The notes beneath the pieces were generated by a model. The model searched no databases. It had not been told where the DNA came from and saw nothing but the letters and a program-made list of their open reading frames with translations. DNA of 56,742 nt from Campylobacterales bacterium (GTDB lineage: Bacteria > Campylobacterota > Campylobacteria > Campylobacterales > Sulfurospirillaceae), in contig JAFGFU010000007.1 in NCBI GenBank assembly GCA_016930915.1, positions 1-56,742 on the forward strand. The letters run 5' to 3'. Shown here in pieces: positions 10,969 through 52,488 of this stretch. Position 1 is the first letter of the stretch; each line of letters opens with the position of its first letter. Position numbers and translations under genes: made by a program.

Positions 10969-11000
10969 TTTACATGTAAAAAGAAATCTTTACATGTAAA
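10969..11000. repeat. Two tandem iterated palindromes
   Basis: TTTACATGTAAA occurs at 10969-10980 and again at 10989-11000, separated by 8 bp (AAGAAATC). The centre-to-centre distance is 20 bp. They lie immediately after the aldo/keto reductase stop and before its terminator, in the gap to the convergent PII gene. Confidence 0.9.
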
Positions 11001-11009
11001 CCTTTATGT

Positions 11010-11046
11010 GAGATAGAGTGATTTTTAAATCACTCTATCTCTTTTT
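11010..11046 (+). terminator. Rho-independent terminator after aldo/keto reductase
   Basis: A perfect 13-bp stem GAGATAGAGTGAT / ATCACTCTATCTC (11010-11022 with 11029-11041), loop TTTTAA, followed by five T. It directly abuts the stop codon of the convergent PII gene. Confidence 0.85.
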
Positions 11047-20632: not shown

Positions 20633-20660
20633 ACTTGAAAGAATGCAAGAAGGATGGTCT

Positions 20661-21173
20661 TTGGAATACTATAAATGGGTTCTCATTTTTCACATTATGT
20701 CATTTTTATCATGGATGGCGATGCTATTTTACCTCCCACGTCTTTTTGTTTATCACGTTGAGCATGCTGAAAAAAAAGGCTTTGTCGAAATCGTGAAAAT
20801 TCAAGAGTATAAAATGTACAAATACATCGGGCTTCCTGCCTTTTGGGCAACCCTTGCAAGTGGACTTTGTATGATTGTGCTTGATTCGCAATTGCTCTCA
20901 AGTGGTGGATGGATTTACGCTAAATTTGCGGTCTTACTCCCCTTAATACTCTACTCTTTCTCCCTTGAAAAGTATCGCCTAGAGCTTGCTAATGGCACCT
21001 GTACGAAAAGTGGCAAATTCTTTCGTGCTTACAATGAAGTACCTACGGCGTTGTCTATTTTAATTGTAGGATATGTCATTACCAAAAGTTTTTCATGGGC
21101 ATTTACACTCATTACTTTAGGTGTTTTCGCCATGATTATTGATGTTATTTTGGATGGAAAAGAGAAAAAATAA
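20661..21173 (+). CDS. hemJ: Protoporphyrinogen oxidase HemJ
   Basis: Membrane enzyme oxidising protoporphyrinogen IX in heme synthesis. The 170-aa product with four helices begins EYYKWVLIFHIMSFLSWMAM, holding the conserved heme-ligand His and WMAMLFYLPRLFVYH motif, and later has YKYIGLPAFWATLASG and FRAYNEVPT. I favour TTG 20661, with AGAAGGA 6 nt upstream, over the ATG at 20643, because the family starts at this residue. The stop codon lies inside a perfect 32-bp palindrome. Confidence 0.88.
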   Translation: MEYYKWVLIFHIMSFLSWMAMLFYLPRLFVYHVEHAEKKGFVEIVKIQEYKMYKYIGLPAFWATLASGLCMIVLDSQLLSSGGWIYAKFAVLLPLILYSFSLEKYRLELANGTCTKSGKFFRAYNEVPTALSILIVGYVITKSFSWAFTLITLGVFAMIIDVILDGKEKK

Positions 21174-21197
21174 TCTTTACATGTAAAGATTATTTTT
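21166..21197. repeat. Perfect 32-bp palindrome built around the iterated motif, at a convergent gene junction
   Basis: The 12-mer at 21176-21187 is extended symmetrically by AATC/GATT and A/T tracts to 32 bp, centre at 21181/21182. It contains the hemJ stop (21171-21173) and the stop of the small membrane protein gene on the other strand (21177-21179). On both strands it has the form of a hairpin followed by T residues, so a bidirectional terminator is plausible. Confidence 0.85.
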
Positions 21198-21461
21198 AAC
21201 CCGTCCTAAAATAATTTTTACATAAATCAGCGCAGAAAGTAACAAAAAATAGCCTACAAAAGTATACCCCAGCGTTTCCCTTTCTTTAAGCTCTTTTCTA
21301 TAAATAGCATCTTCTTGAGATTTTTCAGACGTTAGGGTCGTTACTATTGGCTGTGTTTGCGTTACAGTAGTACTATGATAATGCTTAGGCAACACCTCTA
21401 AGCCCACATACAAAACGCTCATAAAAAAGAGGATGATGGCAAAAATCTTAAGATTTGGCAT
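21177..21461 (-). CDS. Small two-helix membrane protein in the Rieske/cytochrome b operon
   Basis: A 94-aa product with helices at about 6-23 and 67-85 and a polar loop. No CxxCH motif, so it is not a cytochrome c1. It overlaps the end of the cytochrome b gene by 14 nt and is therefore co-translated; an accessory or anchoring subunit of that complex is likely by position only. Its last residues and stop (Tyr-Met-stop) are encoded by the iterated palindrome. Confidence 0.7.
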   Translation of the reverse strand: MPNLKIFAIILFFMSVLYVGLEVLPKHYHSTTVTQTQPIVTTLTSEKSQEDAIYRKELKERETLGYTFVGYFLLLSALIYVKIILGRVKNNLYM

Positions 21462-22608
21462 GGGCTTCCTTTTGAGATAAAAACGGTAAAAGAATAAAAA
21501 GAGCCATAATCAGGGTTGAAAAAAGAAACCCTAACCACAGAGTAAGCTCTGTCGTAGGCAATTTGCCTAAAATCGTAAGGGCAACCAAAGAGAGTACCAA
21601 CGCCCAAAACCACGCACAAAAATAGGGACGTTGGTGTGCTGGAATACGGCGTGGATTTTTATCCAAAAGTGGCATCAATAACAATCCCATATTTACCACC
21701 ACCAAAGAAGCCATGCCAATATAGGAGCCTTTAATAAAACCTATATCAAAGAAAAAGCTCTTTAAGAGTTGCAACATCCATAAAAAATACCATTCAGGAT
21801 AGATATGAGCAGGCGTATCGGATGGATTGGCGGGGGTAAGATTGAGGGCATCAAAGGCTAAATAATCATGAAAAAAAACACAATAAAAAAAGAACGCTAA
21901 AAAAAGTGTGCACGCTAAAAGCGGTTTTAAAACGGCATTGGAGAAAAATGGTTTTGGCTCTTTTGAGGGTAGGGCATGTTTGCTAAAACGCTCCTCTTTA
22001 CTGATATGTAAGCCTTTACGTGTCCATGAGAGTTTGGTCGTAGCGTACCATTTCATAAAATCAATATGCACTAAAATCATCAATGCAATGGCAAAAGGCA
22101 TCACCACAATATGCAAGGTATAAAACCGAAGCAGGGTAATGCCACTCACACTAAAATCACCTCGCACCCAGAGCACAATGTCCTCACCAGCCCCTGGAAT
22201 ATACTCCAACAAACTCGTAATCACTTGTGCCGCCCAGTAACTCATTTGTCCCATTGGGAGCACATAGCCTGTAAACCCTATGACCATACAACAAAAGTAA
22301 AGTATCATCCCGCTGTACCAGTATTTCATTTTACCGTGTTTGTAAAAGCCAAAATAGAGCATCCCTAGAAGATGAATGTAGAGCAGTAAAAAAAAGAACG
22401 TAGAGCCAAGAGCATGAATTTTACGCCACAACCAGCCATAATTAACTTCTTGCATAATAGTGATATGAACACTCTCAAAGGCTTTATTCGCATCAGGAAT
22501 ATAGTGCATCGCCAAAAAAATACCAGAAACCAAAAGCAGGAGGCATAAAACCACCATGATGGTACCTGTGTAGAGCAAAATGTTAAAGTTACTCAATTTG
22601 AGATTCAT
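21448..22608 (-). CDS. petB: Cytochrome b of a bc1-type quinol oxidoreductase
   Basis: Membrane subunit of a quinol:cytochrome c (or other acceptor) oxidoreductase. The 386-aa full-length protein has two heme-ligand His pairs (KIHALGSTFFFLLLYIHL and YTLHIVVMPFAIALMILVHID), the Qo-site motif PEWYFLWMLQLLKSF, GFTGYVLPMGQMSYWAA and eight hydrophobic segments. It overlaps the Rieske gene by 4 nt (ATGA). Unusually, no cytochrome c1 gene follows; the third gene is a 94-aa heme-less membrane protein. Confidence 0.88.
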   Translation of the reverse strand: MNLKLSNFNILLYTGTIMVVLCLLLLVSGIFLAMHYIPDANKAFESVHITIMQEVNYGWLWRKIHALGSTFFFLLLYIHLLGMLYFGFYKHGKMKYWYSGMILYFCCMVIGFTGYVLPMGQMSYWAAQVITSLLEYIPGAGEDIVLWVRGDFSVSGITLLRFYTLHIVVMPFAIALMILVHIDFMKWYATTKLSWTRKGLHISKEERFSKHALPSKEPKPFFSNAVLKPLLACTLFLAFFFYCVFFHDYLAFDALNLTPANPSDTPAHIYPEWYFLWMLQLLKSFFFDIGFIKGSYIGMASLVVVNMGLLLMPLLDKNPRRIPAHQRPYFCAWFWALVLSLVALTILGKLPTTELTLWLGFLFSTLIMALFILLPFLSQKEAHAKS

Positions 22609-23105
22609 GCGTTGGCTCTCTCTTTCAGCTGCAGATACGCTTCGCCTATTTCCCCAACGATAAGCGTGTTTTCTTGAACTTTAAAAGGAGGAATGACTAA
22701 AGGTTTGCTCACAGGCCCTGAGATGGCAATGCCATTTTGATCAAACTGTCCATTGTGGCAGGGACAAATAAAGCGTTTAAGATCGCTTTCATACTTTGGC
22801 ACACAGCCTAAATGGGTGCAAATGCCTATCATCACGGTATAATAATACTCCCCGATTTTAATATCACGTTTGGCATCTAAGCTCAGAGATTTATCTTTTT
22901 TAAGAATAAAAAGTGGTTTTTTCTGCCACGTAAAAAAAGAGACTTCATTAAGGGGGAGGGTGGTCGTGTCAATAAATGTGGCGGCATCCAAACGAGCTTT
23001 TTTGGGAGGTTCTAAAGAGGTAAACATGGTTTTCACACTAAAGTATACACCGCTTCCCGCCAAAGCGATAAGCGAGTAATTCACAATTCTACGGTTCCTA
23101 TCCAT
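22605..23105 (-). CDS. petA: Rieske [2Fe-2S] protein
   Basis: Iron-sulfur subunit paired with cytochrome b. The 166-aa product has an N-terminal helix after a RNRR sequence (possible Tat-type export), and both cluster-binding boxes, CTHLGC and CPCHNG, followed by the Pro loop GPVSKPL. First gene of the three-gene operon Rieske, cytochrome b, small membrane protein. No strong ribosome-binding site is seen before the ATG at 23105. Confidence 0.88.
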   Translation of the reverse strand: MDRNRRIVNYSLIALAGSGVYFSVKTMFTSLEPPKKARLDAATFIDTTTLPLNEVSFFTWQKKPLFILKKDKSLSLDAKRDIKIGEYYYTVMIGICTHLGCVPKYESDLKRFICPCHNGQFDQNGIAISGPVSKPLVIPPFKVQENTLIVGEIGEAYLQLKERANA

Positions 23106-28669: not shown

Positions 28670-29816
28670 CGAGAAAAAAACGCTTTGGTCGTTTTTACTT
28701 CTGTATGCGTTTTTAGCACTGCTTATTTTAGCCTTTGTGGCTTTTTTATATTATGATCTTGAACGTAATTTAATGCTTCAAAATCAAAAAGAGAGTCTTT
28801 CAAACCTCACTAATGAGCAAATTTCACGCCTAAAATCTTTACATGTAAACTTTGAAAAAGAACAAACTTACCCAAGAGATGAGCGCTTTAACTCTGCCAT
28901 TTACGATAGTTCACTCAAACAAATTTTCTCGACTCTGCATGCTAAAAAAGTCAATCTTTATGAAGATATTTATCTTGAAAATGGGAGAATTTACTTTATT
29001 AAAGAGCTAGAGTCTTACTATTTGGGTGCACGCTACATTGTCATTGAAGTTCCAGCTCCAAAGCGATGGGATCGTAAAGTCTACCGCAAACTCCTGCTTT
29101 ATGGTGGACTTATCTTTGGAGTGTTGGTGGTTATTGGTTATTTTTTATTGAACCTTCTTTTGCGTCCCATAAGAGAAACCATTGTACTGTTAGATCGTTT
29201 CATTAAAGACACCACACATGAGCTTAATACTCCCATCAATGCCATTCTCTCCAATATTGAAATGATTGAACTTGAAACACTCGATAGCGCCTTGGCAAAG
29301 AAGATTAAACGCATGAGTATTGCCTCTAAAACTATCTCGAACCTTTATGATGATTTAACCTATTTGGTTCTTTCAAATCATATGGGCTCACACGATGAAA
29401 GCGTTGATCTTAAGACACTCATTGAAGAGCGCATTGAGTATTTTGCACTGCTTTTAGAGTCAAAAAAGATTACGATAAGCACGGATTTACAAGAGAATAT
29501 CACCTTAATCATTGATCGAAAAAAAATGGCTAAATTGATTGATAATATTCTCTCCAATGCCATTAAATACAACACCCTACAAGGCTCTATTTATTTCAGC
29601 CTTAGCCCTGAGGGTATCGTGATTCAAGACAGTGGTAGAGGAATAGAAGAGAATCAAATCCATCAAGTTTTTGAACGCTACACTCGCTTTGATAGAAGTG
29701 TGGGAGGGTTTGGTATTGGGCTTAATATTGTCTGGACGATTGCTAAAGAATACTCTTTACATGTAAAGATTAACTCTCAAGCAAATCAAGGAACATGCGT
29801 GAAAATTTCATGGTAA
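28629..29816 (+). CDS. Sensor histidine kinase
   Basis: Kinase partner of the preceding regulator: helix at about 18-40, periplasmic domain of about 110 residues, helix about 155-175, H-box DTTHELNTPINAIL, N-box NILSNAIKYN, G1 IQDSGRG, G2 GGFGIGLNIVW. Annotated from TTG 28629 (AGGGAAAG upstream), up to 395 aa, but no ATG, GTG or TTG occurs between there and the first helix, so the start is unsettled. Two palindrome copies (28838-28849, 29756-29767) encode Leu-His-Val. It overlaps the next gene by 7 nt. Confidence 0.83.
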   Translation: MLALKNWDINLRSSEKKTLWSFLLLYAFLALLILAFVAFLYYDLERNLMLQNQKESLSNLTNEQISRLKSLHVNFEKEQTYPRDERFNSAIYDSSLKQIFSTLHAKKVNLYEDIYLENGRIYFIKELESYYLGARYIVIEVPAPKRWDRKVYRKLLLYGGLIFGVLVVIGYFLLNLLLRPIRETIVLLDRFIKDTTHELNTPINAILSNIEMIELETLDSALAKKIKRMSIASKTISNLYDDLTYLVLSNHMGSHDESVDLKTLIEERIEYFALLLESKKITISTDLQENITLIIDRKKMAKLIDNILSNAIKYNTLQGSIYFSLSPEGIVIQDSGRGIEENQIHQVFERYTRFDRSVGGFGIGLNIVWTIAKEYSLHVKINSQANQGTCVKISW

Positions 29817-30145
29817 AACATATTCTCTTTTTATTGGTTATTGGCTCCATTTGCTGTGCAAAACAAAATGTATATGAGCAAAACTGTCTTTCTTGCCACA
29901 AAGAATTGGCTGTAAAAATTGACAAATTTTTTTACCGATATCTACTGAAATATAGCAGCGAAGTGGAAGTAAAAAAAGCAATGATAGCCTATCTTAAGAA
30001 TCCTAAAAAAGATACTTCTATCTTGCAAGATGGCCTTATACAACGCTTTGGGATTAAGAAAAGGACAACACTAACAGATGAAAAACTCAAAGAATCAATC
30101 GATATTTACTGGGATACATACACCGTTTTTGGTCGCCTCAAATAG
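29810..30145 (+). CDS. Small c-type cytochrome-like protein
   Basis: A 111-aa precursor with a signal peptide (VKHILFLLVIGSICCA) and one heme motif CLSCH near residue 27; the rest is helical and basic without an obvious distal Met ligand. ATG 29810 overlaps the kinase gene, so expression is tied to the two-component operon. Might supply a redox signal to the kinase; this is inference from gene order. Confidence 0.75.
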   Translation: MVKHILFLLVIGSICCAKQNVYEQNCLSCHKELAVKIDKFFYRYLLKYSSEVEVKKAMIAYLKNPKKDTSILQDGLIQRFGIKKRTTLTDEKLKESIDIYWDTYTVFGRLK

Positions 30146-30146
30146 C

Positions 30147-30158
30147 GTTACATGTAAG
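30147..30158. repeat. Iterated palindrome variant GTTACATGTAAG at a convergent junction
   Basis: The TTACATGTAA core encodes the last two residues and stop (Tyr-Met-stop) of dgkA on the minus strand and begins 3 nt after the cytochrome stop on the plus strand. Confidence 0.85.
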
Positions 30159-30510
30159 CTTTAAGAAGACACAAAAACCACACCGCAACAAACACTACAA
30201 TGCTAAGAAACACCACCGCACTGCCTGCATCTTTAGCGCGTCCTGCCATTTCATGGTATTCGAGTGTTACCAAATCGGTCACGCGCTCAATGGCACTGTT
30301 CATTGCTTCAGCAATGGGCATTCCCATTAAAGCGATAAACATTAACAGTTTATAACTAAGCTCCAAAGGAATGAAAAAAAGAAAAGGAGTTAAAAGAAGC
30401 ACTAAAATGAGCTCCAAACGAAACGATGTCTCATGAGCAATAATATCTCGAAGCCCTTTAAGTGCATAAGTTGTGTTTTTAAAAAAATGGTATTTTGGTT
30501 GGTTTCTCAC
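30148..30510 (-). CDS. dgkA: Diacylglycerol kinase DgkA
   Basis: Small integral membrane kinase recycling diacylglycerol to phosphatidic acid. The 120-aa protein has three helices and the family signature EAMNSAIERVTDLV plus AGRAKDAGSAVVFLS; usual length. Start is GTG 30510 with AAAGG 6 nt upstream. It follows a small membrane protein gene by 9 nt. Confidence 0.92.
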   Translation of the reverse strand: MRNQPKYHFFKNTTYALKGLRDIIAHETSFRLELILVLLLTPFLFFIPLELSYKLLMFIALMGMPIAEAMNSAIERVTDLVTLEYHEMAGRAKDAGSAVVFLSIVVFVAVWFLCLLKAYM

Positions 30511-40596: not shown

Positions 40597-40672
40597 TGGT
40601 GGCCACGAGAGGATTCGAACCTCCGACCACTACCATGTCAAGGTAGTGCTCTACCAACTGAGCTACGCGACC
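40597..40672 (-). tRNA. tRNA-Val (GAC)
   Basis: A 76-nt minus-strand cloverleaf. The acceptor stem GGTCGCG pairs with CGTGGCC (with two G-U pairs), D-arm TAGCTCAGTTGGTAGAGC, anticodon stem CTACC/GGTAG around TTGACAT (anticodon GAC), T-arm GAGGTTCGAATCCTC, discriminator A and an encoded CCA. It lies 50 nt upstream of thrS on the same strand and may be cotranscribed. A 13-bp palindrome ATCACATTGTGAT (40673-40685) abuts its 5' end; the rest of the gap to 40851 shows nothing I can name. Confidence 0.95.
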
Positions 40673-44562: not shown

Positions 44563-44578
44563 TTCGTTTCCTGTTCTC

Positions 44579-44590
44579 TTTACATGTAAA
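44579..44590. repeat. Iterated palindrome TTTACATGTAAA
   Basis: Full 12-mer 17 bp upstream of glmM, in the 120-bp gap between divergent glmM and the DUF6394 gene. A second full copy lies 49 bp away. Confidence 0.9.
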
Positions 44591-44627
44591 GATAATTTGA
44601 ACAAATTGTAACAAAACTTTTTTAATC

Positions 44628-50412: not shown

Positions 50413-51408
50413 ATGAGTACAGTCAGCTACAAAGACGCTGGTGTCGATATAGACGCAGGAAACCAATTTGTCGAAAATATTAAACCCCTTGTAAAATCTA
50501 CCTTTGATAAAAATGTCATTGGAGGCATTGGTTCATTTGCAGGTGCGTATGAGCTACCAGAGGGGTATAAAAAACCTGTCATTTTAGGCGCAACCGATGG
50601 TGTTGGCACAAAACTTAAACTGGCGATTGATTCAGGTATTTACGATACCGTTGGTATTGATTTGGTGGCAATGTGCGCCAATGATTTAATCTGTAATTTT
50701 GGAACACCTCTTTTCTTTTTAGATTATTACGCCATGAGCAAACTTGAGATTGACGCATCGGTGAATATTGTCAAGGGAATTGCACAGGGGTGTATTCAAG
50801 CAGAATGCTCACTTATTGGTGGCGAAACCGCTGAAATGCCAGGAATGTACCACGGAAAAGATTTTGACCTTGCAGGATTTGCGGTGGGTATTGCAGAGAA
50901 AGATGAAATGAATCGTCTTCCCCACGTCAAAGCAGGCGATGTTCTCATAGCACTTCCAAGCTCAGGCGTTCACTCCAATGGTTTTTCACTGGTACGTAAA
51001 ATCTTTTTTGATAAATTAGGCTACACCTTTGAAACCGAATTTAACGGAAAACCCCTCATTGAAACCCTTTTAACACCCACACGTATCTATGTGAAGCTGT
51101 TTAAAGCACTTAAAGAAAACATTAACGCTTTAGCACACATCACAGGTGGCGGTATTGTCGAAAACTTGCCTCGTGTGTTGCCTGAGGGCTTACAAGCACG
51201 TGTCTACAAATCCAAAATCAAGACCCTTCCAATTTTTGATTTTATGAGCCAATACGTTGAAGAGAGTGAAATGCACCGTACCTTCAACATGGGCGTGGGT
51301 ATGATTTTAGTGGTCAGTCCTGAAAATGTGGACGCAATCTTAAAAAATAGCGATGGCTATATCATCGGAGAACTTGCAGAGGGTGAGCGCAGCGCCATTA
51401 TGCTCTAA
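50413..51408 (+). CDS. purM: Phosphoribosylformylglycinamidine cyclo-ligase (AIR synthetase)
   Basis: Fifth step of purine synthesis. The 331-aa protein has SYKDAGVDIDAGNQFVE, GGIGSFAGAYELP, GATDGVGTKLKLA, GGETAEMPGMY and ITGGGIVENLPRVLP. ATG 50413 follows AAAGG by 7 nt. Its stop shares one base with the next start (TAATG), coupling it to the YdcF-like gene. Confidence 0.95.
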   Translation: MSTVSYKDAGVDIDAGNQFVENIKPLVKSTFDKNVIGGIGSFAGAYELPEGYKKPVILGATDGVGTKLKLAIDSGIYDTVGIDLVAMCANDLICNFGTPLFFLDYYAMSKLEIDASVNIVKGIAQGCIQAECSLIGGETAEMPGMYHGKDFDLAGFAVGIAEKDEMNRLPHVKAGDVLIALPSSGVHSNGFSLVRKIFFDKLGYTFETEFNGKPLIETLLTPTRIYVKLFKALKENINALAHITGGGIVENLPRVLPEGLQARVYKSKIKTLPIFDFMSQYVEESEMHRTFNMGVGMILVVSPENVDAILKNSDGYIIGELAEGERSAIML

Positions 51409-52193
51409 TGAGTGCGGTCTATATTCTCTCAAAACTTTTTACATATCTGGTGTTACCACCAGGTATGTTTATTCTTCTCTTCTTTTTTGCTACTTTTTAT
51501 ACTAGAAAATTTCGTCTTTTTTTCCTTGCCAATGCCATTATTTTTTATCTTTTAAGCAATGCTTACGTGGCGGACTGGCTCCTGAAACCGCTTGAAGAGC
51601 CTTACAACCAACCTTTACATGTCAGTGCCGTGGATGCGGTTATTGTTTTAGGAGGAGGGCACACGTACGGAGTTGCTAACTTGCCACTCAGCAGTGATGC
51701 CTACAAACGTATGATGTGGGGGTTAATGGTTGCTAAATCACACAAACTACCCTTGCTCTTCAGCGGTGGAGGTCTCTACAAAGAGTACCTAGAGAGCGAT
51801 GCCTTTTTAGATAGCCTCAAAGAGCTCAAAAGCTATCTTGACATTGCAACACCTAATTCTAAGAGTTTAGCCACCAAAGAATTCTCTTTACATGTAGAAG
51901 ATAAAAGCCTCGATACATACCAAAATGCGCAGTTTAGCAAAATGGCTTTTGAGAAAGCAGGTATCACTAATCCAACGATTTACCTCGTAACATCAGCCTA
52001 TCATATGAAACGCTCCATCATGCTCTATGAGCATTTTGGCTTTAACGTCATTCCTGCTGCGACGAACTTTAAAATCAATCATCGTGCTAAAGATGGCTGG
52101 GACTATCTACCAAGTGTGCAGGCTTTGCATAAAAGTTACATTGCTTTGCATGAATATGCAGGACTTTTGAGTCTAAAATTGCGGGGGATTTAA
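51408..52193 (+). CDS. YdcF/ElyC-like (DUF218) membrane protein
   Basis: A 261-aa envelope protein with two N-terminal helices and a DUF218 domain (VDAVIVLGGGHTYG, PLLFSGGGLYKE, YLVTSAYHMKRSIMLYEHFG). ElyC is implicated in peptidoglycan and carrier-lipid metabolism in E. coli; the same role here is inference. Partial palindromes at 51614 and 51897 encode Leu-His-Val. Ends at a 22-bp palindrome. Confidence 0.82.
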   Translation: MSAVYILSKLFTYLVLPPGMFILLFFFATFYTRKFRLFFLANAIIFYLLSNAYVADWLLKPLEEPYNQPLHVSAVDAVIVLGGGHTYGVANLPLSSDAYKRMMWGLMVAKSHKLPLLFSGGGLYKEYLESDAFLDSLKELKSYLDIATPNSKSLATKEFSLHVEDKSLDTYQNAQFSKMAFEKAGITNPTIYLVTSAYHMKRSIMLYEHFGFNVIPAATNFKINHRAKDGWDYLPSVQALHKSYIALHEYAGLLSLKLRGI

Positions 52194-52212
52194 TCTTTAC
52201 ATGTAAAGATTA
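52191..52212. repeat. 22-bp perfect palindrome at a convergent junction
   Basis: The iterated 12-mer (52196-52207) is extended symmetrically by TAATC/GATTA. The plus-strand stop (52191-52193) and minus-strand stop (52210-52212) form its two ends. Core and first extension are identical to the palindrome at 21166-21197. Confidence 0.88.
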
Positions 52213-52488
52213 TTGACGTTTGTCGTTGGTAATTTTATAGATAAAACTAAAGACCTCCGCTACGGCTTTATAGAGCATGGGCGGAATCTCTTTGTTGATT
52301 TCAATCTTGGAGAGAAGCTCAACCAAATCAGCATCTTTTTTAATAAAAATATCGTGTTCTTGAGCTAATTTAATAATATTATTGGCAACTTCACCCTTGC
52401 CTGAGGCGACCACTTTGGGTGCCCCTTGTTTTTCCCTATCGTATTTAAGCGCAACAGCTTTTTGTGTTTTGGATGTTTGTGTACTCAT
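52210..52488 (-). CDS. FlhB C-terminal-domain-like protein
   Basis: A 92-aa soluble protein resembling the cytoplasmic C-terminal domain of FlhB/EscU (VALKYDREKQGAPKVVASGKG, KLAQEHDIFIKKDADLVELL, EIPPMLYKAVAEVFSFIY), without the autocleavage NPTH motif or helices. Similar stand-alone proteins (YlqH, FlhX) can support flagellar export switching. Start overlaps the end of the FliK-like gene by 4 nt. Confidence 0.85.
   Translation of the reverse strand: MSTQTSKTQKAVALKYDREKQGAPKVVASGKGEVANNIIKLAQEHDIFIKKDADLVELLSKIEINKEIPPMLYKAVAEVFSFIYKITNDKRQ

Follow-up and report, generated by a model that had tools for sequence, protein, structure and literature searches.

The DNA uptake sequences (DUS) of the Neisseriaceae are 10–12 bp long, occur about once per 1–2 kb, have genus-level dialects, and are associated with terminators and gene ends (PMC3630211), and the over-representation of uptake sequences fades over several mismatches (PMC1939737). 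HIP1 (GCGATCGC) of cyanobacteria, which like the alternate HIPs is a palindrome, is very frequent and mostly genic, has alternate forms and losses by lineage, and varies most at its outermost base (PMC4390886). In Campylobacter jejuni, DNA uptake relies on a methylation mark (CtsM) carried by a short motif (PMC8468864). The ParB and Noc proteins have palindromic sites of their own (parS and NBS), and bidirectional intrinsic terminators combine an A-tract, a stem and a U-tract on both strands.

The locus described here, a perfect 32-bp palindrome (AAAAATAATCTTTACATGTAAAGATTATTTTT) in a window of 56,742 nucleotides (the whole stretch of Campylobacterales DNA that was analyzed), resembles each of these in part. 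It is an elaborated version of a mark that recurs throughout the genome, the 10-bp palindrome TTACATGTAA. This mark shares with DUS and with the uptake signal sequences (USS) of the Pasteurellaceae its density, 10–12 bp length, genus dialects, and association with terminators and gene ends. However, DUS and USS are oriented sites that form inverted pairs whereas TTACATGTAA is a palindromic single site, their multi-step mismatch gradient is absent, and the host belongs to a different phylum, where an uptake role is putative. Like HIP1, TTACATGTAA is a frequent genic palindrome with variants, lineage losses and a variable outer base, but it is 10–12 bp long and AT-rich, with a strict core, an enrichment at convergent gene ends, and no methyltransferase found to track it. 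C. jejuni is in the same phylum and has a similar cts-type operon and ComEC, although the D12 methyltransferase discussed below does not track TTACATGTAA. The ParB/Noc palindromes are similar in length (12–16 bp) and in their TTT...AAA outer arms, but differ in the central six bases, and TTACATGTAA has more than 1000 copies and no ParB paralogue that tracks it. The 32-bp copy has the tracts and stem of a bidirectional terminator on both strands, but with a single G-C pair and a conserved DNA motif at its centre.

The 32-bp palindrome and its genome-wide core

The coordinates of the palindromes, their flanking genes and all core copies in the window are listed in Table 1. The initial annotation placed the 32-bp palindrome between hemJ and a small membrane gene, and a 22-bp palindrome (TAATCTTTACATGTAAAGATTA) between two other convergent genes; both are present as described and far above chance, with about 1e-5 perfect 32-bp palindromes expected among 28 core copies at the base composition of the window. 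All 22 bp of the shorter palindrome are the same in the related genome G013. The reported short form at the end of dgkA is also there, the palindrome at this site being the 10-bp core alone, and the opposing plus-strand ORF ends at 30145. Two minus-strand genes do end with Tyr-Met-stop read from the motif, as had been noted. The repeated unit had been taken to be a 12-mer; the actual unit is the 10-mer TTACATGTAA, although the 12-mer TTTACATGTAAA is its preferred form, with 681 copies in the source genome.

Table 1. Palindromes, core copies and adjacent genes in the window
Feature	Coordinates	Strand	Remarks
32-bp perfect palindrome AAAAATAATCTTTACATGTAAAGATTATTTTT	21166..21197	n/a	extended copy with A-tract, stem and U-tract on each strand
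Core TTACATGTAA of 32-bp copy	21177..21186		contains stop of minus-strand ORF
hemJ (UPF0093)	20643..21173	+	stop codon within left arm of 32-bp palindrome
94-aa membrane ORF	21177..21461	-	ends ...LYM*; stop in core; without Pfam match
22-bp perfect palindrome TAATCTTTACATGTAAAGATTA	52191..52212		convergent junction
Core TTACATGTAA of 22-bp palindrome	52197..52206
DUF218 gene	51408..52193	+	converging
FlhB C-terminal-like gene	52210..52488	-	converging
Core copy TTACATGTAA	30148..30157		ends dgkA with Tyr-Met-stop
dgkA	30148..30510	-
Core copy TTACATGTAA	637..646
Core copy TTACATGTAA	1252..1261
Core copy TTACATGTAA	8578..8587
Core copy TTACATGTAA	9814..9823
Core copy TTACATGTAA	10970..10979		convergent junction
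Core copy TTACATGTAA	10990..10999		convergent junction
Core copy TTACATGTAA	13016..13025
Core copy TTACATGTAA	15714..15723
Core copy TTACATGTAA	17164..17173
Core copy TTACATGTAA	19569..19578
Core copy TTACATGTAA	19650..19659
Core copy TTACATGTAA	23250..23259
Core copy TTACATGTAA	24123..24132
Core copy TTACATGTAA	24327..24336
Core copy TTACATGTAA	28839..28848
Core copy TTACATGTAA	29757..29766		within 16-bp palindrome 29754-29769
Core copy TTACATGTAA	31443..31452
Core copy TTACATGTAA	35197..35206
Core copy TTACATGTAA	35228..35237
Core copy TTACATGTAA	35846..35855
Core copy TTACATGTAA	44580..44589		within 16-bp palindrome 44577-44592
Core copy TTACATGTAA	44629..44638
Core copy TTACATGTAA	49204..49213
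Core copy TTACATGTAA	50183..50192
Core copy TTACATGTAA	54845..54854

The window contains 28 copies of TTACATGTAA where 0.15 are expected, and the three sites first noticed are 3 of these 28. The source genome (2.23 Mb), assigned to Sulfurospirillum from the nearest named records, has 1127 copies, about one per 2 kb, compared to six for the reversed-sequence control, and in a 429-kb sample of it there are 214 copies with 0.65 expected, a 330-fold over-representation; within this sample ACATGT is not over-represented outside the TTACATGTAA context. Most Sulfurospirillum members have about 900–1500 copies, with lower numbers in five relatives (G008, 49; G010, 168; G020, 238; G021, 411; G009, 412), and genomes of other families of the order have 0–6. 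No report of the motif in bacteria of the Sulfurospirillum family was found in the open-licence literature.

A symmetric variant, CTACATGTAG, is present in 117–225 copies in several members of the sister genera g4 and g5 (225 in G060 of g5) and in 1–7 copies in Sulfurospirillum. Several members of g4 have 117–220 copies of CTACATGTAG and, where both were counted, 15–23 of TTACATGTAA, and the two forms occur together in G025 of g3 (122 and 265 copies, respectively). Because the change of dialect is symmetric, it fits a dimeric reader. A tree of ten proteins encoded at a single locus groups G008 with G020 as sisters inside the motif-rich clade, a placement with weak support (0.55–0.72), and the losses of the motif in G026 and G035 are separate from theirs. 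No replacement motif was found in G008. In the motif-less G026 (stretches L139, L226, L244 and L245), palindromes of the form TCATGA/ATCATGAT are about 2- to 3-fold over-represented.

The window has several other features of note. A perfect 15-bp inverted repeat with a 2-nt loop (11010-11041) lies at the same convergent junction as the motif copies at 10970 and 10990, a perfect 14-bp inverted repeat, CAACTAAGTTGCAT, with its arms 23 nt apart is at 108-158, and a minus-strand tRNA gene at 40600-40672 is the sole Rfam match. The 94-aa ORF is 3' of Rieske-like and cytochrome b-like genes (21177-23105), named from their translated sequences, and occupies a position in which one might look for a cytochrome c subunit, although it has neither a Pfam match nor a CxxCH motif. 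S. diekertiae has two hemJ-like genes (L030, L039), and the motif is also found shortly 3' of the stop codon of the second.

Conservation and decay of the sites

When the source genome is aligned with G013 (82% DNA identity), 34 of the 37 sites match exactly, whereas the identical fraction of background 10-mers is 0.21 in coding and 0.29 in noncoding sequence, and with G015 the count is 18 of 20; these comparisons draw on approximately 45–90 kb of aligned sequence per genome pair. Third codon positions within the motif are unchanged in 66 of 66 and 39 of 39 cases, compared to 0.63 elsewhere, and the bases flanking the copies vary freely. With silent positions fixed and flanks free, the constraint is on the DNA letters themselves and goes beyond the encoded residues or an RNA fold. 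The 10 bp are thus held fixed as DNA inside and outside of genes in the motif-rich lineages, and elsewhere have decayed by point mutation. In G008 just one of the 32 sites aligned with G023 is retained, 27 of 57 silent positions inside the former sites are unchanged, and unlike in the rich genomes there is a surplus of relics with one and two mismatches, as expected from decay. One-off variants are rare in the rich genomes and mostly alter the outermost base (CTACATGTAA, 47 copies with 0.7 expected); variants with one change in the core are few, and those with two mismatches do not stand out from control palindromes, with observed/expected ratios at 0, 1 and 2 mismatches of 162, 1.64 and 0.61.

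These data leave almost no room for the suggestion of the initial annotation that the element had been inserted at 3' ends. A MITE- or REP-like mobile repeat spread to gene ends would account for a dispersed distribution and high copy number, but the unit is just 10–12 bp with unrelated flanks, copies occupy orthologous positions in distant species, where they are either conserved or changed by point substitution, gain and loss likewise being by substitution, and insertion polymorphism was not found.

Gene ends and putative transcription termination

Gene contexts were assigned with a simple codon-usage caller (92.5% coding), the statistics for the source genome coming from a 19% sample. A survey of convergent gene ends in this sample and in G013 bears out the association with such ends claimed at the outset, with both motif copies and long arms concentrated there: 16 of 46 convergent junctions in the source sample (1.1 expected) and 22 of 57 in G013 (2.2 expected) have a copy, that is 35–39% compared to 2–4% expected, or 14-fold and 10-fold enrichment, respectively. 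For tandem and divergent junctions the enrichment is lower, 2.4- to 3-fold. Sites lie no more than 40 bp from the stop codon in 158 of 1142 genes and from the start codon in 64, and ten genes terminate as Tyr-Met-stop within the motif; since the motif itself contains TAA in one frame of each strand, it can provide stop codons, which may explain part of the bias toward gene ends. Around the G013 chromosome the copies are even, at 5–15 per 20 kb with no trend in relation to GC skew, and they are spaced almost at random, apart from more close pairs than expected (24 spacings below 50 bp, 11 expected).

At the hemJ junction the predicted hairpin has a folding energy of −16.8 kcal/mol on one strand and −15.7 kcal/mol on the other, and in both cases there is an A-tract 5' and a U-tract 3' of the stem; the stem, having one G-C pair, is not G+C-rich, and a standard consensus terminator scan gave no match to it. 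The core at this junction is kept in G013, G015, G022 and G023 and is missing in G008, and G013 and S. diekertiae combine an intact core with outer arms whose symmetry is partly or largely lost. In G015 the palindrome is AAAAAGTAGTCTTTACATGTAAAGACTACTTT, with two arm pairs altered, each on both sides and thus compensating, which at a single locus is modest evidence for a terminator. Half-arms of at least 10 are present in 10 of 58 convergent copies, compared to 4 of the 344 copies that are not at a junction (Fisher p 1e-6), and one of these four is 16 nt from a stop codon.

The initial annotation proposed that the element is a compact bidirectional terminator. The convergent enrichment, the location of long arms at gene ends and the compensating changes in G015 all speak for termination, but as the dedicated, primary function of the element it is improbable. 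About 64% of the sampled copies are intragenic or away from junctions and have short arms, which makes termination unlikely as the main job, and the conservation of silent sites in intragenic copies largely refutes it. Most junction copies also have short arms, the 12-bp form can pair only as a 4-bp A-U stem, and at the orthologous positions in G008 nearly all copies are gone. A putative terminator as a secondary use of the mark at convergent gene ends is plausible and has moderate support from the sequence comparisons. At such ends the palindrome would provide a hairpin nucleus and a source of stop codons, and at a few junctions, including hemJ, the flanks may have evolved into A-tract/stem/U-tract bidirectional terminators. 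The 32-bp extension thus looks like a local, evolvable candidate terminator built on a pre-existing mark.

Candidate readers of the mark

TTACATGTAA looks like a family-specific DNA mark that is read by a putative, probably dimeric protein. We give a probability of roughly 0.5 to the general reading that it is a palindromic Campylobacterota mark with genus dialects and lineage losses, kept base-perfect at more than 1000 sites through a dedicated dimeric reader. As to its role, we tentatively favor self-DNA uptake, at somewhat short of even odds. A symmetric, presumably dimeric protein would read TTACATGTAA as double-stranded DNA, with the site most likely serving as a self-recognition sequence for natural-transformation machinery of the Cts/ComEC type, and sites would be maintained through preferential uptake and recombination of the fragments in which the site is intact.

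An over-represented motif of 9–12 bp at about 0.5–1 per kb, genus-level dialects (CTACATGTAG in g4 and g5, mixed in g3) and the presence of competence machinery (ComEC and a secretin/GspE/GspF operon) are all as expected of an uptake sequence. Of 41 genomes, 40 encode ComEC and the one that lacks it is an 86% complete assembly, and the operon with GspE, GspF, a secretin and neighbors is conserved and resembles the Campylobacter cts cluster; we take it to be cts-like from its gene order and general knowledge of Campylobacter. Density, the bias to gene 3' ends and the terminator association match DUS and so count for uptake, as does the excess of close pairs. Palindromy, the missing mismatch gradient (over-representation stops at one mismatch and does not extend across several) and the retention of the machinery in motif-poor G008 count against it. 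Loss of competence genes is not the cause of motif loss in G008, in which ComEC and the operon are intact. We know of no palindromic uptake sequence, and the open-licence literature searched has no account of competence in Sulfurospirillum.

Two other kinds of reader have to be weighed against uptake. A family-specific nucleoid or segregation dimer binding about 1100 palindromes, each under weak effective selection, would explain the uniform distribution around the G013 chromosome, the all-or-none 10-mer with few core one-off variants, the symmetric dialect change expected for a dimeric reader, and the independent losses on the tree. Such a chromosome-organizing site is only slightly less likely than uptake. 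Against it, no candidate protein was found, ParB is present in essentially one copy whether a genome is rich or poor in the motif, and the strong 3'-end bias is not an obvious prediction. A ParB/Noc-like paralogue was rejected as the reader, there being one ParB_N protein in nearly every genome and none that tracks the motif. A partial comparison of gene content between rich samples and 570 kb of G008 yielded no convincing reader. Separately, in more than 30 hemJ loci of other Campylobacterota families (L038-L101) a parS-like palindrome, GTTTCACGTGAAAC, lies at a nearly constant distance of about 2.4 kb upstream of hemJ, a conserved chromosomal parS position.

The remaining candidate, still less likely, is a HIP1-like process in which an orphan DNA methyltransferase together with methylation-directed repair creates and maintains the palindrome. 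TTACATGTAA is grossly over-represented genome-wide, genes included, being palindromic and mostly in genes with alternate forms and sporadic losses, and its one-offs are biased toward the outermost base, as described for HIP1 (Elhai 2015, PMC4390886). Most motif-rich Sulfurospirillum members have a solitary D12 adenine methyltransferase gene in a conserved neighborhood (L218 4431-5402 and relatives). This syntenic gene was not found in G008, which has only unrelated D12 genes, in the poor G020 and G009, or in G017, and D12 presence is associated with motif count in a rank test that ignores kinship (p 0.006). Although suggestive within the genus, D12 as the driver is contradicted by its absence from four motif-bearing genomes (G017, 934 copies; G027, 567; G060; G063) and its presence in the motif-less G026. 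N6_N4 methyltransferases show no association, neither PF02086 nor PF01555 methyltransferases track the motif, and methyltransferase sites are usually shorter than 10 bp.

If the dedicated-reader interpretation is correct, there are two possibilities: TTACATGTAA is a palindromic uptake sequence, the first such sequence beyond the two classical families, or it represents a class of chromosome-wide protein site that is new. More than 1000 fixed copies, silent positions included, suggest that a single protein leaves its imprint on the sequence of an entire genome. Sulfurospirillum provides a natural experiment, with rich species, a decayed close relative (G008) and sister genera with a symmetric dialect, such that the drivers of highly iterated palindromes and uptake sequences become directly testable in a new phylum, and the hemJ locus illustrates the possible recruitment of a DNA mark to stop transcription in both directions.
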